A stretch of 17,367 nucleotides of DNA. It comes from Pavlovales sp. CCMP2436 (taxonomy: Eukaryota; Haptophyta; Pavlovophyceae; Pavlovales). A model generated the notes under the pieces. The model was not told where the DNA came from. It ran no database searches and was given only the letters and a program-made list of their open reading frames with translations. Positions 721 to 15,469 of this stretch are shown piece by piece; position 1 is the stretch's first letter; every line of letters begins with the position of its first letter. The stretch covers positions 54,135 through 71,501 of the forward strand of contig MU631780.1 of the NCBI GenBank assembly GCA_026770615.1, written 5' to 3'. Position numbers and translations under genes: made by a program.

Positions 721-1228
721 GCGGTGGTTTCACATCGACTGGTCACGTCGCCCCCAACTCAGGCATCTCCAAGAGCGCGCGTAGGCAGCGGCGTGGCCGG
801 CAATAAGAGGTAAGGAGTCATAGACGGGCATTAAGAAAGCTGGAAACCCGATTGAGGCCAGTTTCTTAGGGTTTCTTAGGGAAGCCCAATTTCTTAAATT
901 GTTGCTGATTTGGCTCTGGCTTACCGGCAGTGAGGCGCTTAAGTTCCCTTATCTGGTATTTCTTAATTACCCAAGGAGTTATTTTCTAGCCTTGCGTCCG
1001 TCTCCACGTACGTTATTATGAAGGGCCAGAGACTGAGACAGTGCGAGGGCTACATAGGGCATGGACAAGAGGGGCAAGGCTTGCACAAGGGTTTAGGGAC
1101 TAAGTACTCTACCCAGCAAGGCCGCCGGCCCCTAAAAAACTCCATCTGCTTTGAGATATTATAAAACCGCAAAAAAAAAAAAACGAGGCGCTAATTACTT
1201 TTATATATATATGAATATATATATGTAT
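721..1228. other. Non-coding spacer with a short dispersed motif
   Basis: No supportable gene. At 819-837 lies catagacgggcattaagaa, whose reverse complement recurs with a 4-bp insertion at 5405-5427. A short duplicated word (tttcttaggg) occurs near 870-889. AT-rich microsatellite-like DNA (tatatatatatgaatatatatatgtat) lies at about 1200-1228, next to the repeat that starts at 1229. Confidence 0.6.
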
Positions 1229-2708: not shown

Positions 2709-4538
2709 TTAAAGTTGCATTTTAATAGAAGTCCGGATGACCGACTGGAGCGCGGCCCCGAACTTGTTGCCGCTGAGCTTGAGCTTGGTCAGCGACGCGT
2801 TGCCCTTGAGGCTCTCGCCGAGGCCGACTGCGCCCGCGTCGCCGATATGGTTGCTACGGAGGTCAAGCTCGATCAGCGACGCGTTAACCTCGAGTGCCTT
2901 GGCGATGCCGAGCGCGCCCGGGTCGGCGATCTGGTTCCAGCGGAGGTCGAGCGTGGTCAACGTCGCGTTAGCCGCGAGGCCTTCGCCGAGCGCGACCGCG
3001 CCCGCGACGCCAATTTTGTTTCATTGGCGTTAAAGTCTGAGCGTGGTTAGCGACGCGTTGACCTCGAGCGCCTTGCCGAGGCCGAGCGCGCCCATGTCGC
3101 CGATCTGGTTGCCCCTGAGGCCGAGCTCGGTCAGCGCCTTGCTCGACGAAAGGAAGGTGCCCACGAGCATGGCGCCCTTGTCACCGATCTTCACGTATGG
3201 CAGCAGCACCTCCACGGCCGAGCTCGGCAGCGAGCGCACGAGCATGTGCGCATGGACCTCGCCGATCGCGCTCGTCAGCGACAGCCGCGGAAGCGCTGAG
3301 CGTCCGAGCGCCTCGAAGCCCGCGGCCACCAGCGCCGCACCGTTTTCCGCCTTGACGACTGCCTCGAGCGCGGCCACAAAGTAGCGAGCGCGCACCGTCG
3401 CGTCGAGCAGCTCGGCACCGAGCAGCATGGCACCGAGCAGCTCGACACCGAGCAGCTTGGCACCGAGCAGCTTGGCACCGAGCAGCTTGGCACCGAGCAG
3501 CTCGGCACTGGCTGCCTGCCGCTGCACGTCCTGCCGCTGCACGTACAGCACGATGTTGTCGCGGTCGAGCTGCACGGCCGCCTTGGTGTCCTTGAGCGCA
3601 AATTTGAGGGCGCGCTCGATGATGGCGAACGAGAATTTTTTGTCGCGGCCCGCCTTCTGTTTCGCATTGTTATTGTCACGCGCGATGAGCCCGTCGGTGA
3701 GCCGCTGCACCTCGCCCTCGTGGTGCGTGTAGATGTCGATCAGGTAGCCCGCCCCGCCCACGACCATCGCCAGGTTCATCTCGAGCGCGCACCACGACCG
3801 GTCGAGCACGCCCTCGCCCTCCGCCGCGACGATGATGAGCGTCATGGCCGTGGCCTTGAGCGCCTTGAAGAAGGGCGAGTCCTCGATCGCGCCGAGCTCG
3901 ACATCGTGCTGCCGGATCGCGAAGGCGCAGATCCAGATCGGCTCGTCATTGCCGTAGCCGCGGTCCTTGGCGTGCTACACGAGCGCCTCTCACGTCTGCA
4001 GCAGCGAGTGCGACCACGCGTGCGAGAGGAACACCTTGGGCGTGCGCTGCTGCCCGCGCGCGAAGAGCTCCGAGAACGAGATGCCGAGCTCGGCGCCGAG
4101 CCGCGCGAGCAGGTTGAGGTTCACATCGTACAGGTTGACCTCCTCGGGCTCGAGGCCTCGCACCTCGAGCCACGCGCCGGCCGACCAGTGCCGCCCGACC
4201 CACGACCACGAGTGCCGCTTGACGTGCTCGACGAGCAGGCCAAGCTCGCGCAGGGTGATCGCGCGGTACTGAGCGCCCTCGACGCGCACCGGCTGCCCGT
4301 GCTCTCGCGCCACCTCGGCGGCAAACACCCGGGCCGCCGCCCTCGCCGCGACGTCGTCGTTGTGGGGCAGCGCCAAGCCGCCCGTCAACACCACCGGAGC
4401 GAACTCGCCGAGCGCCGGCTCCTCGCGCGCCGCATGCCGCAGGCCGACGGGCGCCGCCGCGTGGTCGAGCTTGATGTGCACGTCGTCCGCGCCAACGCCC
4501 TCGTCGGCCTCAATCGCCGCACTCTGGCAGGCCCCCAT
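2709..4538 (-). pseudogene. TIR-like domain/leucine-rich repeat protein, nonsense-mutated
   Basis: One continuous minus-strand frame of about 610 codons. The chosen start (4536-4538) gives MGACQS, a fitting N-myristoylation motif with a neighbouring Cys for palmitoylation, so the protein was probably membrane-tethered; an in-frame ATG also lies at 4613. Residues about 118-145 (WSAGAWLEVRG..PEEVNLYDVN) lead into a TIR-like fold: VFLSHAW at 169-175, DEPIWICAF, SPFFKAL, then the Arg-Ser-Trp-Cys-Ala-Leu-Glu block. Next come charged helical sequence, a 15-bp tandem repeat giving GAKLL-type pentads, and RI-type leucine-rich repeats (LTELGLRGNQIGDMGALGLG, LDLRWNQIADPGA, LDLRSNHIGDAGA). Such TIR-like/LRR proteins are widespread in algae and may act in sensing or immunity (inference). 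Four in-frame stops break it: TGA 3990-3992 (a Trp position), TAG 3975-3977, TAA 3030-3032 and TGA 3021-3023. No frameshift is needed, so decay is recent or some stops are read or spliced around. Confidence 0.8.
3405..3509. repeat. 15-bp tandem repeat in the TIR/LRR pseudogene
   Basis: About seven units of gagcagctNggcacc. On the minus strand they encode pentads of the type Gly-Ala-Lys/Glu-Leu-Leu. The repeat is in frame, so copy number could vary without breaking the protein. Confidence 0.9.
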
Positions 4539-4613
4539 GACCAAGCGGCAAGCGAGCGATTCAGTGAAAGTCAAGGTGGGAAATCCAAAGCCAACGGTAA
4601 CGCTATTGCTCAT

Positions 4614-4810
4614 GTTATTCTTGATTGTTTTATTTTGCTTTATTATTCTTGATTATTGATGTTGTTATTGCTGTCATTGTTGTTGTTGCATGGGGGAGGG
4701 ATTGGTGCAGCAAGCGCACTGTCTCTGCCTTGCCGGCGCGCGCCGCTGCGGCGAGCACGGCTGCGTCCCAAGCGCACGGGGGGTGAGCGGAGATTTTTGA
4801 TAGAGGTTAA
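4614..4810. other. AT/TTG-rich spacer
   Basis: A T-rich stretch with repeated TTATT and TTG words (about 4605-4690), then GC-rich DNA. No gene can be supported. A TAA at 4808-4810 closes the frame upstream of the next coding island. Confidence 0.5.
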
Positions 4811-5180: not shown

Positions 5181-5183
<3 letters not shown>

Positions 5184-5242
5184 CAGTGTTCTTGTTCCGG
5201 TAAATAATTTTGGGGCCCCACACTTAAAATCCGCTTAAATTT
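5172..5242. repeat. Diverged dispersed repeat, copy B (partner 1625-1703)
   Basis: It starts from the end of the AT tract with ggccagtg and ends with gcttaaattt, as in copy A. The stretch 5243-5440 that follows is non-coding, with a short TA tract and the word taatgcccgtctatg (5413-5427) that recurs inverted near 819. Confidence 0.6.
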
Positions 5243-5440
5243 CAAACCTAGGTTTGAAAACGGGGGCCTATGTGACAGGACGGGCATATATATATATATG
5301 TAAATATATATTGCTTTCGTTCTTAAGCTACCTTGCTATTGGAGGCCCAGTTTCTCCACTTTTTCTCCCAGCAACATTGATGCTCAGTTCTGTAATGCCC
5401 GGTTTTCTTAATTAATGCCCGTCTATGCCTGTATTGGGAC

Positions 5441-6341
5441 CCAGTTGTCTTCACCGCGAGCCCGGCTGTCTGGTCCACACAAGTGGTGGCCGGTAGACTG
5501 ATTGTCGTTCGGGCGGCTCTTCGGTCGGCGTGGCCCGCCGGCCGGGGATGCGGAAACCTGCGCTGGCCATCGCAGCGGCGTGGGCCCGCCGAAGGGGAGG
5601 TCGGCTGTCTTCGCGGATGGTTAACTGATCTGGGGAACGGTACGCTCTAGTCCAACCTCCTCTTCTCTGCAGTGCCTATCCTGTTGGACGGCCGGGCTTT
5701 GCCCCTGGAGTGACCTACGCATCAAGCAAGGAAGGTTTGGGTGAGACCCTCAAATTGCGAGGAAGTCCAAGCGCTCGGTGATCTGCGATGTGAAGTAGAT
5801 CACTGTACGAGCCCACCCGCGATCTACCTCCGGCGCACTGAAAGGTGCGTGGCTAGGACGGACTCTGCGTGCGGTTCTCGCGCGCAGTCTCTCGAGCCGA
5901 TCGGGTCCCAAGAGCGCGAGCAACTTGGGGGGTCATAATGATCGCGGGGCAAAGGACCACACGCAGCTAAGCTACTCGGTTAACCACCCCAGAAATGGGA
6001 TACGTGGAGTCCGCTGAGCGTCCAGTGCAACCGGCGTCCGAGCAGCATGTTCAACGACTGGACGGGGGTCGGTCGGGGTTGTAAGTTTGCTGAGGGGCTC
6101 TAAACCTCGAGGACGCACGCCCGGCTTAAGATACAGTCTCTCGCCCCGGGAGACCGGGCCGCCGGACTAAGGGGTTGCGCCCTATAGCCGGCGGAGCGAG
6201 CCACCCTTCTCGTTATGGGTCTTGCCTGCGGACAGGTGGGGAGGTGTGCAACCCCCATCCGCAGGCCTAGTGGTGGCAGGCTCCCATGTAATGCCTTAGT
6301 GGCTGGCTGGGTGGCCTGTCCTGCTGGGCAGGGCACGATCG
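5441..6341 (+). ncRNA. Group I self-splicing intron (IC1-like ribozyme)
   Basis: The four conserved core elements occur in order and resemble the Tetrahymena rRNA intron. P is ctcaaattgcgagg (5749-5762). Q is accacacgcagctaag (5956-5971). R is gttcaacgactggacggg (6049-6066), followed by gtcggtcgggg. S is cttaagatacagtctc (6125-6140). Pairings visible by eye: P3 5745-5749 with 6066-6070; P4 5755-5759 with 5962-5966; P7 gactg 6056-6060 with cagtc 6134-6138. After S there are P9-type hairpins: gtctc/gagac around 6136-6154, ccgccgg/ccggcgg (6159-6165/6188-6194), gcctgcgga/tccgcaggc (6224-6232/6258-6266), and gccaccc with gggtggc (6200-6206/6309-6315). The likely terminal G is at 6341, just before the Glu codon of a ubiquitin tail. 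No homing endonuclease frame is inside. The 5' splice site and P1 are not identified. Nuclear group I introns are known almost only from rDNA; the flanks here are not rDNA. Confidence 0.85.
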
Positions 6342-6401
6342 GAGGACTACAACATCAAGAAGGATTCGACGCTGTACGGCATGGCGAGGCTACCGGGAGG
6401 T
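6339..6401 (+). pseudogene. C-terminal 21 residues of a ubiquitin (unit 1)
   Basis: In frame with the ankyrin ORF and directly after the intron, the translation SEDYNIKKDSTL...RLPGG aligns without gaps to ubiquitin residues 56-76. By hand, 12 of 21 positions are identical, including Asp58-Tyr-Asn-Ile61, Lys63, Ser65-Thr-Leu67, Arg72-Leu73 and the terminal Gly-Gly. Position 74 is Pro instead of Arg. The first residue (Ser, where Leu56 is expected) probably belongs to the intron end, which would put the 3' splice site after 6341. Residues 1-55 are not found anywhere upstream. Confidence 0.8.
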
Positions 6402-7494
6402 GCAGACGCGCAGAGCGTCACGGGTGAGCCTAGCACCGGGAGCGAGCCGAGCGCTGCGGGCGGTGGTGCTCCGAGCGCGCCGAGTGGGGCAGAGACGACG
6501 CTCCCGCTGCTGCTTCGCGCTCTTGTCGGTGATCCACTACGAGCTCTCCCCACGCACCTAGACGGGGGCGACCGCATTTGTGCCATGCTCACGTGCAAGA
6601 CCTTCAGAGAACACTCGGGTCATGAGACGGGGGAGACGACTAGGAGGTCTGACCTCCTGCGCACACGCGCGTTGGCGGCTTTTGCGTGCATACACATGCC
6701 AGACTTTGTCCGCCTCTCCGATTGGGTCCGCCCACTCGACGATGACGAATCGGAGCGCCCTCCAGCCCTGCTGAATAATGTCGCAGTGAGATATGGCTGT
6801 GTGGGCGCCCTCGAGGTACTTGTTGACGAGTGGATGTGTGATCTGGGCGGAGACTTGAACGGCACAGCATGCGATGATGCCGCTCAGGAGGGGAACCTCG
6901 AAGCACTGATCTGGCTCCTCTCCCGAGGCTGCCCCGTGGGCAAGTTTACCTGCTTCTCGGCCGCTCAAGGAGGGCACTTCGAGGCACTACGCCACGCGCA
7001 CGAGCACGGAGGCGAGATTGACAGCAGCAAGTCCATCATCGCTGCGCTGGGAGGCCACATGCAGACACTGCGATACAGCATCGAGCACGGCGGCCAACTC
7101 TCGGCAGGGGATAGGAAGTGGTTGGTTACCGAAACCACGAGGTGCGGGTTCACCGAGGTGGCCGAGTACTTGCGCTCTGCCGAGCAGGCAGGCAGCGCGC
7201 CGAGCACCATGGGTGGTCCAAACGCCGAGCACACGGCGAGCGCGCTGTCGGGCGGGTTACCGAACACACCGCCAAGCCCGCCGCCGCCGGGCCCACCGCC
7301 GCCAAGCCCGCCACCACCAAGCCCGAACGTGTCGCCTAGCCCGCTAATGCTGAGGGTTCGCACCCTGCCAGCGCGGAGTGCGCTGCCGCTGCCCAGCGCA
7401 CCGTCATGCGAGTCGCTGAGCGCGCCACCGAGCACAGCACAGACGCTCAGTGCGCCGCCGAGCGCTGCGCCACCGCCGGACGCAGCGTCGAAGC
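6402..7494 (+). pseudogene. F-box-like/ankyrin repeat module of the retroelement
   Basis: It continues the ubiquitin tail in the same frame, with an ATG at 6381 inside that tail. A Gly/Ser/Ala linker is followed by a short F-box-like helix (DRICAMLTCKTFREH). Then come three or four algal-type ankyrin repeats: AVRYGCVGALEVLVDEW, DDAAQEGNLEALIWLLSRGC, FSAAQGGHFEALRHAHEHGG, IAALGGHMQTLRYSIEHGG. A Pro-rich tail follows (PPSPPPPGPPPPSPPPPSP). Ankyrin repeats bind proteins and F-box helices recruit ubiquitin ligase complexes (family knowledge); a role in the element is not known. Near 7494 the sensible frame ends and Arg/Cys-rich shadow sequence begins, while the Ser/Pro-rich pattern resumes in another frame, so a frameshift lies there. 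Confidence 0.7.
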
Positions 7495-7969
7495 TAGCGC
7501 TGAGCGTGACACGCCGCTGTCGAGCGTGCCCAGGGTATCGCCGCTGCAGGGCGTGTCGGGGAACACGCTGCTGGGCGCGCCGAGAGTGTCGCCGCCGAGC
7601 GAGCCGCCGCTGGGTGCGCTGCTTGCGCTGCCGCCGCCATCGCCGGGCACGCTGCGCGCCGAGCCGCCAGTATAAAGGTGCGTCCACCCCCAACACACTG
7701 CCCAGCCTGTTCCCCAGCCCTATCCATCGCCGCCGCCCCTACCGTTGCCAAAGCCTACCGCGCTGTCGGCGCCCTCACCGTCGCCCCAGGACTCGCTCAC
7801 ACCGTCGCTGCCCCCACTGGCGCCCACTATTACTGCGCCGTCGGGCGTGCTGCTGAGCGCTTCACTGAGCGCGCCGCCGCCGCCGAGTGCACAGTCGGGC
7901 GTGTCGCCTAGCGCGGCGCTGAGCGGGGCGTCGGCGCTGAGCGCGGCGCACAATGCCGAGTCAAGCCCC
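7495..7969 (+). pseudogene. Pro/Ser/Ala-rich linker of the polyprotein
   Basis: After the frameshift the frame reads LSSVPRVSPLQGVSGNTLLG, APRVSPPSEPPLG and so on, meets a TAA at 7673-7675, then continues in the same frame as SPPPLPLPKPTALSAPSPSP to the second ubiquitin. Recurrent (L)SAPP/SAALS units link it to the linker before the shift. It is probably an unstructured spacer between the ankyrin module and the ubiquitin-like unit. The TAA could come from CAA by one C-to-T change. Confidence 0.6.
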
Positions 7970-8197
7970 ATGCACATTTTTGTCGTGATCTTCGCTGGCC
8001 AGACGCTGGTGGTCGAGGTGAAGCCATACTTCACGGTCGAGACGGTCAAGGACGCTATCACGCTCAAGACCGGCATCGCACGCGACCTCCAACTCCTCAC
8101 CTGCGAAGGCAAGCGGTTGGATGACCAGCACTTACTCGTCGAGTGCGGTGTCGAGAATCATGCGACGCTGCGCCTCACGAGCCGCATGAGAGGCGGC
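7970..8197 (+). CDS. Ubiquitin-like domain (unit 2), 76 residues
   Basis: Starts at an internal Met (7970-7972) as MHIFVVIFAGQTLVVEVKP and ends with RMRGG. It is exactly 76 residues, the length of ubiquitin, and aligns without gaps. My hand count gives 32 of 76 identities. Lys27, Lys33, Lys48 and the terminal Arg72-x-Arg-Gly-Gly76 are kept. Lys6, 11, 29 and 63 are lost, and the Leu8/Ile44/Val70 patch is altered (Phe/Thr/Thr). It is embedded, with Pro-rich sequence before it and ASNDPFF after the Gly-Gly, as in ubiquitin fusions that deubiquitinases cut after Gly76. The likely job is a processing site or fold-and-release tag in a polyprotein (inference), rather than a signalling ubiquitin. Confidence 0.88.
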
Positions 8198-8690
8198 GCG
8201 TCAAACGACCCTTTCTTCGCAGCCAGCATCTTAGTCTCTTACAACGAGATATACGCGCTGCTTCACGCGGCGGGCGGCCCGATCAGGGTAGAGCGCTCTA
8301 GATCGGGTCGCGAGCTTGCACGCGCGATCCTCGCTGCGCTGCCCGTCGCGCCGAAGGCCATCGAGCCTAGCGAGATCCTCCCGCGACAGAGCCGCATTCG
8401 GGTTTTTAGTTAGAAAAGTTTTTTTTATTATTCTGTGCGGATGCGCAGAAGGCCCGCGACAAGACGCTCAAGACTGCATTCAATGTGAGTTGCGGCAAGG
8501 AGCTGCACATCGACAAGCTCTGGCACATGGTGCAAGGCTGCACAGTGGCTCATGAGCTCGCGACTACCTTGATCTTCGCCGTCTGCTAGCGTGCACTGCA
8601 AGTCATCGACGAGGCTGACACACTTGCCTTCGACGACGACCGCAACCGAGTCATCGCTCTCGTCTTAGATGATGTGGACAATTTTCCCAA
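8198..8690 (+). pseudogene. Polyprotein segment after ubiquitin unit 2
   Basis: The first part (to about 8406) reads DPFFAASILVSYNEIYALL, AAGGPIRVERSRSGRELARA and meets TAG at 8411-8413. The same protein resumes one frame over as LEKFFLLFCADAQKARDKTL, TAFNVSCGKELHIDKLWHMV, crosses TAG at 8587-8589, and goes on as RALQVIDEADTLAFDDDRNR and VIALVLDDVDNFPNY. The composition looks like a folded helical domain. I do not recognise the family. Its place before an RGG tail and RT makes it the N-terminal part of a Gag-like protein. Confidence 0.55.
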
Positions 8691-9160
8691 CTACCGCACC
8701 ACCGGATGGATGGGGCGCCAACCGGCCCTTGCTCTTCGAGGCCCATGCTGCCAAGCATGCCTTCAGGGTCCGGACGCAAGCTGATGCCAGCGTGTTTGCG
8801 AACATGCTCCCAGTCGCACGCAGAGATGCCCTCGACAACGCCGCCAACGTTGCCGACGAAGCTGCAGCTACGCTCCTACGCCCAACTCTTGACGGGGAAG
8901 CCTGGAAGGACCACATCGCCGGCTCCGTACCACTGTTGCAGCCGCTTCCAAGACCGCCAGCTCAGCCACCGCCGCCACCGCCGCAGCAGCGGCCACCGCA
9001 GCGGCCGCCACTGCATCGCGGTGCGTATGGTGGAGGTTACAGGCGCGGCCGTGGTGGGGGGAGAACGGGGGGGGTACAGGAGGGCGCGCGCGCGGCGATT
9101 GCAACGCGCTCTCTGGTGGGCATGGGAGACTGCTACCACCACCCCGTCGTCAACGGCAAG
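8691..9160 (+). pseudogene. Gag-like segment with Pro-rich and RGG-rich tail
   Basis: Reads PPDGWGANRPLLFEAHAAKH, TQADASVFANMLPVARRDAL, NVADEAAATLLRPTLDGEAW, then a PPPPPP stretch and an arginine/glycine box (HRGAYGGGYRRGRGGGRTGG). RGG boxes bind RNA, which suits an ORF1/Gag role in packaging element RNA. No CCHC zinc knuckle is seen. The frame differs from the segment before it, so a frameshift lies near 8690; another follows at about 9070-9160. Confidence 0.6.
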
Positions 9161-9490
9161 CGCCATCGTCGAGCGAGGACGTCGAGCGCCTAACCATGCC
9201 CCTACCCACACGGCCAAGCGCAGATCCGACCGGCCGCGACTTCTCCGTCCTCGACCACCTCACAGTTGCTGAAGTCGCCGGGCACGCGGGGAACACGTCT
9301 CGGCAACTCGATGCCATACCCCAAGACTTCCACGAGCCCTGGGCCGCCGCGACGGTCCTCGTCATCGAAACCATCCGCAACTCCGGGCCGGACAACGAGG
9401 TGGAGGAGGTGCGAGCGCTGAAGATGCTGCTGATCCTACCCTCGCTACTACATACTCCGAAAGCAGCCCGCGGCCTGCGGGGGCCGTCAA
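9160..9490 (+). pseudogene. Linker between Gag-like and RT segments
   Basis: Reads VERLTMPLPTRPSADPTGRD, FSVLDHLTVAEVAGHAGNTS, QDFHEPWAAATVLVIETIRN, VEEVRALKMLLILPSLLHTP. It is well composed and probably helical, with no recognised domain. It corresponds in position to the region before the RT in related algal retroelements. It shifts frame again near 9480-9490. Confidence 0.5.
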
Positions 9491-10045
9491 GGACGTCTGG
9501 CGAGCGCCAGACTGCTCGCCTCCCGCTTTGACCGATGGGGGTGGGGAGACTTTGGCAGCCTCATTGCTGACTGGTCTGGAGACTGCGCGGCGGGGGCACA
9601 GCAGCGCAGCAGCCGGCGCTCCCGTCCAGCCAACCCCGAGCGAGACATCAAGGCGGACGTCGCCCTTCTCGCCCAGGGCAAGTTTTCCGACGCCGCAAAG
9701 CTGCTTCAGAGCCACGGCCTCACTGACATCGCGGACCCGGCCGTGCTCCAGTAGATGCTCGCCAAGCATCCGCCCAGGAGGTCCCCCATGCCAGCGGTCA
9801 TCATGGGCCTAAACACCACCAACCGTATCGTTGTCGGCGTCACGGAGATGGAGGAGGCATACCGAGGACTCAAGACCGACAAGGCACAGGGTGCCTCGCC
9901 CTGACGATACGAGTACCTTATCCCACTCGCCCCGACGGAGCCTTTCGTGGGCGACGCTGCACGCCACGTGCTCGGGTCGCACGCCTGGCTGGCATCATCC
10001 TTCGCCAACGGCAATCTGCCCCCCTGGTTCTACTTCGTCTTCTGC
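9491..10045 (+). pseudogene. RT N-terminal extension and fingers
   Basis: Reads LASARLLASRFDRWGWGDFG, then RDIKADVALLAQGKFSDAAK, LLQSHGLTDIADPAVLQ, MLAKHPPRR, EMEEAYRGLKTDKAQGASP, YEYLIPLAPTEPFVGDAARH and SSFANGNLPPWFYFVF. The block of a short helical repeat (GKFSDAAKLLQSHG) followed by LxxKHP and then RT sequence is typical of a non-LTR RT group seen widely in algae and protists (family memory). TAG at 9752-9754 and TGA at 9902-9904 interrupt it; each is one C-to-T change from CAG or CGA. Confidence 0.7.
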
Positions 10046-10760
10046 GCCGTGTGCCACTCCGCAAGTGTGCGGTCCAGGCCGGCGTCGCGGAGTCTGCGCG
10101 GCCAATCGGCATCTCGTGCGCGCTGAGACGAGGTCTCACCAAGGAAGTCTTCCTCAACAAGGGCCTTCGCGGCGAGATTAAGGACTACCTCTTTCCGCAG
10201 CAGCTGAGAGTGCTCGTCTCGGCAGGCGGAACGAAGCTCATCTTTGGCGTGCGCGAGCTCCTCGAGAACCCCAGCTTCTGCATCGCCGGCTCCGACATCT
10301 ACAACGCGTTCAACGAGGGCGACCGCGCAGAGATGGTGGCGCGCACCCTCGCCAGCTCCTCCGGCCTTGTCCCGCTCGCACGCCTCTTCTACGCCACGTT
10401 TGCCCCCAAGTACCCCATATTCGTCAGCGGCAAGGGCGGCGGCTTGACGCCCATGGGCAGGGACGGCGAGACGGGTGTCGCCCAAGAGTCGGTGGAGGGC
10501 GGAGTCGCCTCCCAAGCTACAGGTGCTGGACGCCGAGCTGCGGCCATACGGTGGGAGCGCTCGGGCCGGCCACGATGATGTACGGGCGGTCGGCCCGCCC
10601 CATATTGTCTTCCCGGCGATGCAGCGCTTCCATGACGCGCTCTTCGCGCGGCTCGGCCTCGTCGTGCAACCGGCCAAGTGCGAGTGCTGGATCGATGAGG
10701 CCCACATCGATTCCCTCGACACCCACCGCGGCCTGGTGACGCACAGCCACCTACTCGACG
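10046..10760 (+). pseudogene. Reverse transcriptase catalytic core
   Basis: RNA-directed DNA polymerase that would copy element RNA at the target site. Fingers motif: ARPIGISCALRRGLTKEVF. Motif A: SDIYNAFNEGD, with the catalytic Asp at 10294-10296. Motif B is degraded (ETGVAQES in place of a G-x-x-Q-G-D-type block) and lies beside a frameshift around 10450-10480. Motif C is Gly-His-Asp-Asp (10568-10579), which keeps both catalytic Asp but replaces the usual aromatic/Ala or Met residues before them. The thumb start follows: FHDALFARLGLVVQPAKCEC. Confidence 0.8.
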
Positions 10761-11940
10761 GCGTGACTCCGTACTACGGCGTCATGTGCTACGGCATCTC
10801 CATCGGGTCGGAGGAGTACATCAAGCTTGCCCTAGCTGGCAAGTGTGACGAGATCACATGCATCTCAACCAAGCTAATCACTTCGCTCAGCTCGTCACAC
10901 AAGCAACAGCTCTGGCTCTTGACCCTCTTTTCCACGGCGCGCAAATTCGAGTACTTTGCGCGGCACTGCTACCCGGACGACTCGCGCGACGCATGCACCC
11001 GCTTCGACGCGATCATCCACGCGCAGGCGACGCACGTTCTAGGAGTCTCGCTCGACGACGATCAGTTCGCGACCGCCCGCCTCGCACTTCTCCGCCGCTA
11101 CCGTGGCGCCGGACTTTGGCGGATGGTCGACATCGCGCCGGTCGCCTTCTGTGGCGCCATGGTGCAGGCGGTGCCAGCCTTTCTCGACGTGTGGGCCAAC
11201 GCGACCAACCCGGCCAGCGGCGTCACGCAGCGCGGGTTGCTCGAGCTGCCGCAGGTCGAGCGCACGGTGGGGCGGAACTCCTTTGTGGACATGCAGCAGC
11301 ACAGCTGGCGCGCATACCAGCTGCCGTCTTCCGGGGCAGGCCCTCTGCCACCGCCGCTACAGGGACAGGCCTTCCGCCGCTGCTGGTTGCTGCTGCAGCA
11401 GGAGGCCGGCATCGCCACAGGAGCGGGGCCCAACGGAGATTGGCCAACCTCCGTGCTCCACCTACCTCCAGAGGAAACATGGCCGACGGCGCGCAGGAGC
11501 GCCGGCAGGCTGTGTCTCAACATGCAGAAGGACCTCACTGACGACCTGGAGGCTCACCGGTACGACGTGCTCAAGATGCAGATTAACGCGCGACACCGCA
11601 GCGATCGCGCCGTACACCTCTTCAGAAGCCTCGATCGTAACAGCTCTGCCTGGGTCACTGCACAACCGGGCGGCTACGGGCTCTGCAACACCGGCGAGTG
11701 GGTGGAGATCACCGCGCGCTTCTTCGGCGTCCAGAGCCCCATCTGCGCCGGCCTCGTCGCGCGCGGCGCGCGGCTCTTCGGCCACCTCATCGACGCGTTC
11801 GGAGACAACCTCGTCGCAGCCACAGGCGCAGGCGTCACCGGCGGTCACATCGCCAAGATCCGGCACGACCCGATCCTCGCCCTCCTCGCGAAGTTTGCGA
11901 GGTCCGTGGGTGCGTTCGCGCGCACCGAGGTTGGAGACAT
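10761..11940 (+). pseudogene. RT thumb/connector domain of the retroelement
   Basis: The same frame as motif C stays open without a stop from 10475 to 11989. It reads YYGVMCYGISIGSEEYIKLA, SSHKQQLWLLTLFSTARKFE, RFDAIIHAQATHVLGVSLDD, RLALLRRYRGAGLWRMVDIA, PVAFCGAMVQAVPAFLDVW and LRAHRYDVLKM-like helical sequence, then CAGLVARGARLFGHLIDAFG. This resembles the helical C-terminal region that follows the RT in algal elements of this type, between polymerase and endonuclease. No separate named domain is recognised. At 1.5 kb it is the longest intact frame of the element. Confidence 0.65.
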
Positions 11941-11960
11941 CGCACCGAGGTTGGAGACAT
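11921..11960. repeat. Perfect 20-bp tandem duplication that causes a frameshift
   Basis: The word cgcaccgaggttggagacat occupies 11921-11940 and is repeated at 11941-11960. Twenty extra bases move the reading frame exactly from the upstream RT-connector frame to the downstream nuclease frame, so this one event accounts for the break. Confidence 0.95.
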
Positions 11961-12523
11961 CTTTGGCTCGGAGCTCGCCGCCAACCTAGGGGCCTACCAC
12001 CTCTACTACGGCGGAGTCGGCCGGCGACCCGGGCCGAAGGTCGACTTTTACGCCGTGTCCGACCACTGGAGTGGGCGAGCAGTCCCGCGGCTATTCGAAC
12101 TCAAGACCATCGCGTTCTGCCCTACTCGGTATAAGGACACCAACGGGCAGTACGCGCAGGGTGCGGTGGGTAGGCGTGCCGACACGCTACCTGGCGAGCG
12201 CATCAAGGAACTCATCAAGCTCGACCGCGACTTCTTCCACACACCAGCCGGGTAGACTGGCCCAATGGAGGCCCGCGCGCTGACCTTCTGCCCCCCAGGC
12301 GGCGACCCGTTCACTACTCTCGCAGTTGGCGCCTTTGGGGAGTTTTCGGTCGGCTTTTAAACGCTGGTCGCCGACTTTGCCAGCATGGGCGCACGCGCAC
12401 TGCGCGGGCGCACGGGAGCTCCCTCCGAACAGCTCGCACGCACCGCCCTCCTGTGGAAAATGCGGCAGGAGATCGGTATGTGCGCCTTGCGTGGACATGC
12501 AAAGGTCATCATAGCGCGCGCGT
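11961..12523 (+). pseudogene. PD-(D/E)XK-type nuclease and C-terminal domain of the retroelement
   Basis: Reads IFGSELAANLGAYHLYYGG, then KVDFYAV with an acidic residue at 12043-12045 and FELKTI with Glu 12097-12099 and Lys 12103-12105. The D...ExK spacing is that of restriction-like endonucleases, used by several non-LTR retroelements to nick the target DNA. After TAG 12253-12255 the frame continues with LTFCPPGGDPFTTLAVGAFG, crosses TAA 12358-12360, then ADFASMGARALRGRTGAPSE and MRQEIGMCALRGHAKVIIAR, matching the usual tail of this RT group (family memory). Confidence 0.7.
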
Positions 12524-12646
12524 ATGAAGAACATCGGTGGCGGCGGCGTGGCACACGGTGGCGCAGACGACGACGGCACCGAGGAGTGGGCTGAGGGCGA
12601 ATACCACCAGCGACAAGAGACACGGTCGTGGCATGAAGCCGCGTAG
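12524..12646 (+). pseudogene. Gly/acidic C-terminal tail of the retroelement polyprotein
   Basis: After the ALARAYEE-like end of the previous frame, a shift near 12524 gives KNIGGGGVAHGGADDDGTEE, WAEGEYHQRQETRSWHEAA and a TAG at 12644-12646. The alternative frame is Arg-rich and ends at 12579, which looks like shadow sequence. I take this as the last piece of the polyprotein. Confidence 0.45.
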
Positions 12647-12709
12647 GCCCGCCACCTAGGCGATCACTGGCTGAATTCGTCGGCCGTACACATCAGATTT
12701 GTCTGACTG

Positions 12710-12768
12710 CTGCTGCCTGTCTTCCTATAAAGTAAGTCATAGTTACTTTATAGGAAGACAGGCAGCAG
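12710..12768. repeat. Perfect 26-bp inverted repeat (3' hairpin of the retroelement)
   Basis: The arm 12710-12735 (ctgctgcctgtcttcctata + aagtaa) is exactly complementary to 12743-12768, with a 7-nt loop gtcatag. A run of seven A follows at 12771-12777. It lies just after the last polyprotein piece, so it may be the 3' structure that the RT recognises, or a 3'-end processing hairpin (inference). Confidence 0.95.
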
Positions 12769-12777
12769 TGAAAAAAA

Positions 12778-13079
12778 TCTAGCCCTTGAGAGGGGACTGG
12801 GGACGCGCGTTTACGTCACGGCTGAATCACACAAAGCGCCTTAACAATGCGGTCAATAATAATTAATACATAATTAAAGAATCCATTACCCCGGGCTCGT
12901 TGGCCGACGGTGATGCCCCTACCTGGGGACGGTAATGCCCCTACCTGGGGCTCCTCGGATACCCCTACATAGCCCCACCTGGGGAACACCTTTTTCCGGT
13001 GACCCGAGTGAGGAACGACCCCCCCCCGTGCGCGGGCTACCGTATTTACATTACTGTGCGTTGGATTCAAGGTCGCTTA
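12778..13079. other. Spacer with three CCCC/GGGG mini-hairpins and a C-run
   Basis: The word atgcccctacctgggg occurs at 12913-12928 and 12935-12950, and a shorter gccccacctgggg at 12972-12984. Each can fold as CCCC/GGGG with a short loop. A run of C lies near 13016-13027. No gene is supported. Confidence 0.75.
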
Positions 13080-13892
13080 TAAAGATTTTTCAGAAGAATG
13101 GCTTGACGCGAAGCACCCCTGGAGGCCGACTAGACCATGCGGCTTACGCGAGCATCCGAGGGCACGGCGATGGCCGACGGTGGAGGTACATCTGGCGCCG
13201 ACGTGGATGACGATGGAGACCCATGTGGTCCATCCGCCGCGGGCGCCGCGCCGCGTAGTGCTCGCGCAGGCAAAGGCCGACGGTTGCACACGCAGCTCAT
13301 GGAGCCCATGGTCTGGCAGTTCCTGTTCCTTGGTTGGGACGTGGTTGCAATCGCGGAGAACAACCGCACGTTCGACAACACTGTTGTCGAGTCGACCGTG
13401 CGCGCAGTTCTGTAAGGGTATGACGACACCGGCTTCGTCGACTACCTGCCGCGCGCAAGCCGGGAGAGGCTGATGCCGCTCGTACCCCGGCGGCAGCTCG
13501 GTCAGCACGTTGTCCTCCTCGAGCCGAGAGTTGAGGTACGCGTCCTTAACGTCTCCGACCGATAGAACGTCACGGATCGAGAGCACAGCGACCTGCGGGT
13601 TTGCGCACCTGCGCAGCCGCTTGCCGTGGATCTTGGCACCGACCGCTATCATCATGCGATTTTGCTCGCCGCGGACGGTCGGTGAGAATGTCTGCTCGAA
13701 ATCGATACCTGGACGCTGCATGTTGCCCCACACGACGGTGCGCGCCTTGAACCGCGTGACCTCGTTCTTGTTGCTCGACTTGAGCGAGTATGTCCAGCGG
13801 CAGGGGAGCCGTCTCGTCTTGAGCGGCACGGCGACCACTTGGAACGTGTCCTTCTCGTCATGCATCTTGGAGTGGTCCTGCATGGCTCGCAG
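13080..13892 (-). pseudogene. Copia-type reverse transcriptase, truncated
   Basis: Begins in the integrase frame after one TAG. Recognisable blocks: WTYSLKSSNKNEVTRFKART, VVWGNMQRPGIDFEQTFSPT, VRGEQNRMMIAVGAKIHG, VGDVKDAYLNSRLEEDNVLT (motif A; the Asp of VKDAYLN where copia has DVKTAFLNG) and ELPPGYE. After that the frame is disturbed: the tyrosine/VDS-containing segment TARTVDSTTVLSN appears in another frame. Later VSIVIHVGARCTSTV fits the motif C strand, where HVDD is expected and HVGA is found, so both catalytic Asp seem lost (tentative). The thumb and RNase H are missing beyond 13080. It would have copied element RNA in virus-like particles. Confidence 0.8.
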
Positions 13893-15323
13893 CTAGTCCG
13901 CGGCGTGCTCTGAGCGAAAGGCCTGCATATAGTTAGTAGGGATGCTTACTGGTTGCCCGCCGTAAAACGCTGTGTTGGCCGGTCGTGCGTGCGCTACGAC
14001 AGGGATGCTCGATGCTGCGGCGGCAGCGACTCGATCACTCGGCGCGGCGCCGACGCGACTGCGCGATGCGGCCGCCGTGTCAGCGTCTTGACCACGCGGC
14101 GCGGCCAAGCCGCGCGACTTGCTCCTTGAGGCTCGATCACGCCTCTGCGGGTCGTGCTTGAGCGTGAGGGGCGGAGCGCCTGCACGCCGCAAGATAGTGG
14201 CCTCGGGCTTGTCGGCCTCGAGCTCGCTCTCACTCTCCGACTCGACGAACTCGGGCTTGCCGACAGGCGTGGACGACTCGGACTCGCCGGCGAGCGTGGA
14301 CGGCTCGGACTCGAAAGGCGTGTGCCCCCCCTCGAGGAGCGGGCGCTCGTCGACTTGTACATGCCGTGAGAATGCGAGACGTCCGTCGTCTAGCAACACA
14401 ATCCAGCCCAGCATGTAGCGGTAGGTCCGATCAAGCTGCACGCCGTCCACGCCGCGGCCCATCACTCTGCCGCGCGCCGACTGCATGCCGAACTTGCCCT
14501 TGGGTTTGGTCCCCTCTCCGAGCAAGAGGACCCGGCACGGCGCTCCAAAGATGACAGAGCGCTTGCAGCTCGGCCGCCGGTCGAAGAAAAGCTCGAAAGG
14601 CGAGACAACGCGCACGGCGCCAGTCGTCGGGTCGACGACGTGCCGCGATGCGAGACGGTTGCAAGCTGCAACCGCGTGCCTGAGCGCCCAATGCCAATGG
14701 CGGAAGCTTTGGCCTGACGTGGCCAGCTTCGCACGCACATCTGGCTCGAGAGTCCCAAAGCTGCGCTCAGCCACGCCATTGCTGGCAGGGGTGTGCGGGC
14801 ACGACGTGACGTTGGCCGCCAGGCCATACTCGAGAAGCACCTTGCCAAAGGCCTCCGAGTTTATAGGTGTACCTCCGTCGGTGTGAACGTACCGACGAAA
14901 ACCCTTGCCAAGCATGAACAAGCCGCCGCCATGTGCCGACGCGCCGAGCTTGGGAAGGTAGTGCCGTGCGAGCCCGGGGAGCTCGCGCTGCGACTTCGCA
15001 AAGTAAGCCCGGCGGAATCGCGAGTATACATTCACGAAGAGAATGGCATACTTGTAACCCGACCGGCCCCCCTCGATGTTCTTGATGGACAAGTCGTGCT
15101 TGGACGCCGAGTAGACGTCCAGGTACGTGATCTCGCCGGCGGCCTTGGAATCGGACAACGGCAACTCGTGTGTGAGTCGCCGCATGCGTGCGTCCGACAG
15201 CGTGTTGAGGGCCAACGCCATTAGAGTTTGACTCCTTATGTCGTCGACTGCCCTGCGCGTCCGCGCGAGCAGGTTCTTGTCAGTTGTGCCCGTCCGGACA
15301 GACCACAAATGCAGCCAGTCCAC
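13893..15323 (-). CDS. Copia-type integrase
   Basis: 476 codons, intact from a GTG at 15323 (open to TAG just upstream) to TAG at 13893-13895. It joins element DNA into the host genome. The DDE triad is present: Asp69 in TYLDVYSAS, Asp149 in YVHTDGGTP and Glu186 in NGVAERSFGTL, with 36 residues between the last two. Other landmarks: GYKYAILFVNVYSRFRRAYF, SPFELFFDRRPSCK (the post-core copia block) and VIFGAPCRVLLLG. A long acidic/Ser-rich stretch (ESEPSTLAGESESSTPVG...) and Arg/Ala-rich tail precede the RT. The His/Cys zinc-binding N-terminus is not evident, so the N-terminal end may be missing or in another frame. TAG at the end sits where a Trp or Gln codon would continue into RT. Confidence 0.9.
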   Translation of the reverse strand: MDWLHLWSVRTGTTDKNLLARTRRAVDDIRSQTLMALALNTLSDARMRRLTHELPLSDSKAAGEITYLDVYSASKHDLSIKNIEGGRSGYKYAILFVNVYSRFRRAYFAKSQRELPGLARHYLPKLGASAHGGGLFMLGKGFRRYVHTDGGTPINSEAFGKVLLEYGLAANVTSCPHTPASNGVAERSFGTLEPDVRAKLATSGQSFRHWHWALRHAVAACNRLASRHVVDPTTGAVRVVSPFELFFDRRPSCKRSVIFGAPCRVLLLGEGTKPKGKFGMQSARGRVMGRGVDGVQLDRTYRYMLGWIVLLDDGRLAFSRHVQVDERPLLEGGHTPFESEPSTLAGESESSTPVGKPEFVESESESELEADKPEATILRRAGAPPLTLKHDPQRRDRASRSKSRGLAAPRGQDADTAAASRSRVGAAPSDRVAAAAASSIPVVAHARPANTAFYGGQPVSIPTNYMQAFRSEHAAD

Positions 15324-15469
15324 AGAGGGGCGCCCCCCTCCGTGACCAGCAACGCCGGTCTACCCCGGGCCGCCTAGTTTCCCTGGCCATAGGAGGCCTG
15401 GGAACGCTGCTCTGCGCGGCGTAGGTTGGAGGGGCCACTGCGGCGCGACGATGCGCGTACCTTTGGCGG

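Follow-up and report, generated by a model that had tools for sequence, protein, structure and literature searches.

A dispersed group I ribozyme outside rDNA in chimeric retrocopies with a LINE-like element of a haptophyte, and a possible role for the ribozyme in their joining

The window analysed here is a stretch of 17,367 nucleotides from Pavlovales sp. CCMP2436 (contig MU631780.1, positions 54,135–71,501). In line with this origin, six of ten protein matches are to proteins of Pavlovales sp. CCMP2436, with 79–82% identity across 19–51% of the query. Its central part carries, on the plus strand, a segment of about 1.03 kb with a group I ribozyme core (limits approximately 5311–6344, which fit better than the earlier 5441–6401) that runs directly into part of a LINE-like retroelement. 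Judged by their sequences, this locus and its relatives elsewhere in the genome are chimeric retrocopies of ribozyme RNA and LINE; the whole retrocopy in the window would span 5311–12744 (+), with the complete ribozyme RNA in front and the LINE, from a ubiquitin Asp58 codon onward, behind it, as delimited by the common 5′ limit of the ribozyme copies, the joint at 6344/6345 and the cluster of LINE 3′ ends. A TA repeat flanks the chimera at its 5′ side and an inverted repeat follows its 3′ end. On the minus strand, the window also holds a leucine-rich-repeat gene or its fragments (2709–4652; LRR_6 E = 5.1e-20 in 2709–3020) and pieces of a Copia-like retrotransposon (13077–15359), with an RVT_2 match at 13077–13892 (E = 1.3e-15) and an integrase-like frame recognized by eye at 13893–15359. 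Repeats at 1226–1381/17217–17367 and 4975–5099/17045–17169, direct (97–99%) and inverted (92%), lie beside TA repeats. These repeat sequences also occur next to several of the full-length ribozyme copies, as would be the case if TA repeats served repeatedly as places of insertion.

The group I assignment made in the preliminary description is borne out by a full-model match to the Rfam family Intron_gpI (RF00028) at 5702–6160 (+), which scores 33.8 bits, with E-values of 1.9e-5 when the whole window is searched and 1.3e-6 when 5300–6500 is searched; this score and the 36.7 bits of a sister copy, the best in the genome among the 26 of 827 candidates scored, both lie below the Rfam gathering score of 50 bits. 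The RF00028 alignment and pair counts place the catalytic core at 5745–6158 (+). On that strand we could draw P3 (5745–5751/6064–6070), P4 (5755–5759/5962–5966), P5 (5766–5768/5954–5956), P7 (6056–6059/6135–6138), P8 (6071–6077/6120–6126) and P9 with a GAGA loop (6145–6149/6154–6158), together with the motif AAGAUACAGUC. The segment has the P3–P9 core with P7 and the J8/7 motif by which a group I ribozyme is recognized. When 12 of the 23 copies are aligned, with helix pairs defined by us, the pairs of P3, P4, P5, P7, P8 and P9 are kept in at least 9 of the 11–12 lettered rows, conservation that is weak evidence by itself because the copies are nearly identical (most are 92–97% identical to the window copy). 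In the divergent copy, L014 (82%), P7 has lost its 3′ strand, and this ribozyme is presumably inactive. Folding of the whole segment gives −327 kcal/mol with a z-score of −3.1 against 20 shuffles; a fold of this kind is unable to hold the P3/P7 pseudoknot.

Outside the core, a candidate P2 hairpin lies at 5692–5708 (+), where five of the six drawn pairs hold and the sixth holds in no row. Upstream of it, GUCCAAC at 5650–5656 can pair with a guide, GUUGGAC, at 5683–5689 to form a candidate P1 (5650–5689, +), which would set the 5′ splice site at 5653/5654 (+). The corresponding strand reads GUCCUAC in 9 of 10 rows, and six of the seven pairs are kept in at least 9 of the 10–11 rows, with a U·U mismatch at +1 in 9 of 10. 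Both P1 and guide were assigned by eye, when the joint motif described below was already known, and the same assignment puts a C–G pair at the candidate splice site (GUCC|UAC with GUUGGAC). Group I introns more commonly have U than C at this position, just 5′ of the splice site. At the other end, a 3′ extension of hairpins predicted by folding (6159–6344, +) ends in CGATCGGAG, and G6344 is the proposed terminal guanosine of the ribozyme RNA. The leader comprises 5316–5433 (+), which is 82–84% like one end of a repeat of about 505 bp with inverted ends of about 35 nt (C145, C96 and C52), and a remainder at 5434–5653 (+) that is without rRNA match, ends in GUCC and is a candidate 5′ exon. Parts of the approximately 505-bp repeat (L052, L053 and L054) also resemble window positions 816–1174. 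No spliced genomic copy was found: at all 12 loci with the string GCTCTAGTCC, which lies just 5′ of the proposed 5′ splice site, the string leads into ribozyme sequence. Two exact core words scanned in viral contigs gave 0 matches.

Nuclear group I introns of rDNA share with this segment the core helices and, as proposed here, a P1-like guide and a terminal G, and they interrupt rRNA genes. Here, each of the 22 copies that retain the 3′ end leads into LINE sequence, in some cases that of a diverged relative, and an Rfam scan found no rRNA family in the window at E ≤ 1, nor in L001, the one further locus scanned, at E ≤ 0.01. The first description was right to place the ribozyme outside rDNA and beside the ubiquitin codons of a mobile element. 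A universal SSU rRNA word has 0 matches in the assembly, and a master copy of the ribozyme may still exist in rDNA.

A search of the genome (119 Mb, 703 contigs) with window positions 5181–6500 and L014 as queries revealed that the ribozyme segment is a dispersed repeat with at least 23 loci, a lower bound obtained by scoring 40 of 98 candidates. The 3′ end in CGATCGGAG is kept in 22 of the 23 copies, four of which have one or two changes in the last nine bases; only C405 (L015) is without it. The 5′ ends vary: 9 of the 23 copies share an end near 5311 and have TA-rich or unrelated DNA upstream, not the 5′ part of the LINE, and the remaining 14 begin between 5323 and 6237, resembling truncated retrocopies.

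The downstream partner behaves as a LINE, with a fixed 3′ end, clustered at window positions 12731–12744, and variable 5′ truncation of its copies. It encodes ubiquitin-like domains at two places, the C-terminal part of a ubiquitin unit at 6345–6404 (+), identified from its sequence and from uninterrupted relatives, and a second domain at 7976–8188 (+; PF00240, E = 5.7e-11); long GAGCACGCCGCCGAGC-type repeats lie upstream of the first domain (L036, 1–1551). A reverse-transcriptase-like region, with approximate limits 10100–10760 (+), was located by motifs read by eye and has a broken frame in this copy. The window's LINE open reading frames have no Pfam reverse-transcriptase match; the relative P0011 matches RVT_1 at 19.6 bits (E = 8.1e-4), below the cut-off of 29.6, and by the motifs and this sub-threshold match the LINE may carry a reverse transcriptase. 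P0011 is 48% identical to P0006, whose structure prediction (mean pLDDT 32.5) was of no use, and a search of solved structures returned no match. Directly after the LINE 3′ end, an inverted copy of that end forms a long perfect hairpin (12705–12773), which draws weak microRNA-family matches below cut-off.

The preliminary description had read the segment as a self-splicing intron within a ubiquitin coding unit of the element, a reading suggested by the group I core and by a joint that falls at a ubiquitin codon. Ubiquitin codons do follow the ribozyme, but the GAG taken for Glu57 belongs to the ribozyme segment, and the LINE starts at 6345 with GAC, Asp58 in our numbering. The window has no ubiquitin N-terminal half directly upstream, and the ubiquitin sequence is continuous in all 12 related LINE loci printed with sequence before 6345 (over just 86 nt in L028; one of them, L047, corresponds to C229 and has a ribozyme further upstream), so the segment is the 5′ part of a chimeric retrocopy and does not interrupt a ubiquitin unit. 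Other ribozyme copies are joined elsewhere in the LINE: of at least 23 copies, the 22 that keep the 3′ end have 19 or more different joint points. Related copies without a ubiquitin N-terminal exon had been named at the outset as grounds for abandoning the intron, and on this criterion it fails. On the continuous relatives, the missing N-terminal half and the varied joints we reject the intron, whose probability we put at close to nil.

All 22 ribozyme copies with a 3′ end run in the same strand into the LINE (19 copies) or into a diverged relative that is 70–85% similar in parts (L010, L014 and L022). With the L014 joint left out, 21 joints could be read at 19 distinct points. In window coordinates these lie at 6345 (the window copy), 8512, 8635 (twice), 8648, 9228, 9530, 9878 (twice), 10574, 10757, 11129, 11203, 11540, 11780, 11792 and 12010; two more, in L004 and L006, fall in LINE sequence upstream of 6345, and those of L010 and L022 in the diverged relatives. 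At every one of the 21 joints, C is the LINE base lost immediately ahead of the joint, as read from the closest uninterrupted LINE copy or, in the case of C614, from the window only. In L003 and L020 this reading rests on closer copies, which have C where the LINE of the window has T. After the joint the LINE continues with GAC in 18 cases, with GGC in two (L012 and L023, the latter with GAC in the chimera itself) and with GAG in one (C614), so that 18 of 21 joints read C|GAC, the bar marking the joint. The L004 joint sits in a tandem repeat whose displayed copies all have C ahead of GAC. The joints of L010 and L022 were read after the C rule had been written down, and both are C|GAC.

This pattern departs from the composition of the LINE and from the way in which its ribozyme-free copies begin. 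C precedes 57 of the 131 GACs of the LINE body and 27 of the 53 in-frame GACs, so the chance of finding C at all 19 distinct sites is 1.4e-7 or 2.7e-6 with the respective background. Among 17 control truncations without ribozyme, one starts at C|GAC (C111) and another (C162) within 1 nt of such a site, compared with an expectation of 0.7 of 17 from the 4.3% of random LINE points that lie within 2 nt of C|GAC; 18 of 21 joints versus 1 of 17 truncations gives a Fisher probability of 1.3e-6. The 17 controls come from 21 start points, and none of the four left out (C426, C79, C520 and C369) reads C|GAC at its listed point in the window. The truncations speak against a general drop-off of reverse transcriptase at C|GAC, and inspection rejected spliceosomal or spliced-leader joining, as the LINE is without a regular AG before the joint.

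We favour, as the probable origin of the chimeras, joining of the ribozyme RNA to LINE RNA by the ribozyme's own catalysis, with the products fixed by LINE reverse transcription, and we infer the following course from the joints. In cis, the guide GUUGGAC would pair with the ribozyme's own GUCC|UAC. In trans, the guide, which lies just 5′ of the candidate P2 hairpin, would pair in the same register as in the candidate P1 with C|GAC of LINE transcripts through G5686–C(−1), U5685–G(+1), U5684–A(+2) and G5683–C(+3), and thus account for both sides of the joint, the C before it and the GAC after it. Hydrolysis at the 3′ end would release the terminal G, as happens in full-length circularization, and this G would attack the LINE RNA at C|GAC in a reaction like the first step of reverse splicing, yielding a [leader–ribozyme]–[LINE 3′ part] RNA with the LINE from GAC onward. 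By this route the approximately 1.03-kb ribozyme RNA would have been joined by its 3′ end many times to transcripts of the abundant LINE, and reverse transcription would have carried the chimeric RNAs into the genome; the window contains one of the resulting copies. The steps have precedents: reverse splicing with a guide of 4–6 nt is described chemistry (PMC1299323), as is 3′ hydrolysis followed by attack of the terminal G on the 5′ splice site (PMC3679873). Recognition would rest on four bases, of which a single one lies 5′ of the cut, because pairing beyond −1 is not significant (pyrimidine at −2 in 13 of 21 joints, p = 0.07). GUYG occurs at nine places in the segment, and none clearly stood out in a scan for extended guide pairing.

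The main rival, possible but in our view less likely, is template jumping, in which the LINE reverse transcriptase would pass from LINE RNA to a plentiful ribozyme RNA at its 3′ end (...GGAGGAC); the cDNA end GTC, by annealing to GAC, would favour GAC sites, and ribozyme chemistry would have no role. Such switching is a known explanation of similar chimeras (PMC2104539, PMC13174262), and it suits the 5′ truncation of the ribozyme parts at many points. With a ribozyme RNA ending in GGAGGAC, GAC alone could serve as microhomology, and L019 and L023 fit such an end unchanged; if the ribozyme ended at G6344, L019 would need one inserted base and L023 one substitution. Template jumping leaves unexplained, however, why all 21 joints are preceded by C: microhomology has no means of selecting this lost base, which the product does not contain and which stands opposite a G of the ribozyme. 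The ribozyme-free truncations do not share the C|GAC motif, and L012 (C|GGC) and C614 (C|GAG), which show that GGAG alone can come from the ribozyme, would need mismatched annealing.

The fixed ribozyme end and the site motif would also follow if fragments of LINE RNA, cut at C|GAC by a nuclease that thereby set the site, were ligated to the ribozyme RNA by an RNA ligase of the host. Ligation at the RNA level has been proposed for U6/LINE-1 chimeras (PMC13174262), but here it requires a C|GAC-specific nuclease, for which nothing was found, and the 17 truncated LINE copies are without such cuts; we consider it improbable. Against ribozyme joining we count the want of significant pairing beyond −1, the assignment of the guide by eye, the L014 guide, which reads GUAGGAC and fits GAC less well, the fit of L019 and L023 to GGAGGAC, the less common C at the candidate splice site, and the failure to find a spliced copy at the 12 loci.

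In its architecture, a fixed non-coding RNA end fused in sense to varying LINE 3′ parts, the family resembles MINE of Magnaporthe grisea, the closest precedent, in which WEIRD, a non-coding RNA of about 1.1 kb, is fused to truncated MGL LINE copies at 28 different sites, six used twice, with a short LINE-site motif, GCC*A/U (PMC2104539). Target duplications are described in that report, whose authors favour template switching and saw no microhomology; of the 18 rows of its Table 3, by our own count, 16 have C and 2 have T immediately ahead of the joint. The motif differs from ours, and WEIRD, which we compared by description only, is not called a ribozyme there, with 0 occurrences of the word. 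Chimeras of U6 and other RNAs with LINE-1 in mammals likewise place a sense non-coding RNA 5′ of a truncated LINE (PMC13174262); here the partner differs in being a ribozyme with a guide-like sequence that fits the joint. Among the matches listed from the open-licence PMC literature, judged by title and start of abstract, none describes a LINE-borne group I ribozyme.

Spread of group I introns at the RNA level by reverse splicing has been proposed (PMC3679873, PMC1299323). According to a 2013 review, all known eukaryote nuclear group I introns interrupt rRNA genes, and experimental evidence for complete RNA-level mobility, comprising reverse splicing, reverse transcription and genomic integration, was still lacking (PMC3679873). 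The copies studied here differ from rDNA introns in lying in LINE chimeras, with the LINE as host RNA and only the half-joined product seen. We give even chances to the fuller view that a group I ribozyme outside rDNA is a parasite of LINE transcripts, its guide directing the terminal G to C|GAC and LINE reverse transcription writing the products into the genome. If this is true, RNA recombination catalysed by a ribozyme would have left a natural record in DNA in the form of these copies, one that takes in the steps of reverse transcription and integration, and the some twenty genomic joints with their ribozyme-like rule would amount to a natural experiment for the RNA-level mobility pathway. 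Since all its tabulated joints follow a pyrimidine, the WEIRD RNA of Magnaporthe might be a second such ribozyme, and a ribozyme-based reading would be on offer for LINE chimeras so far ascribed to template switching.
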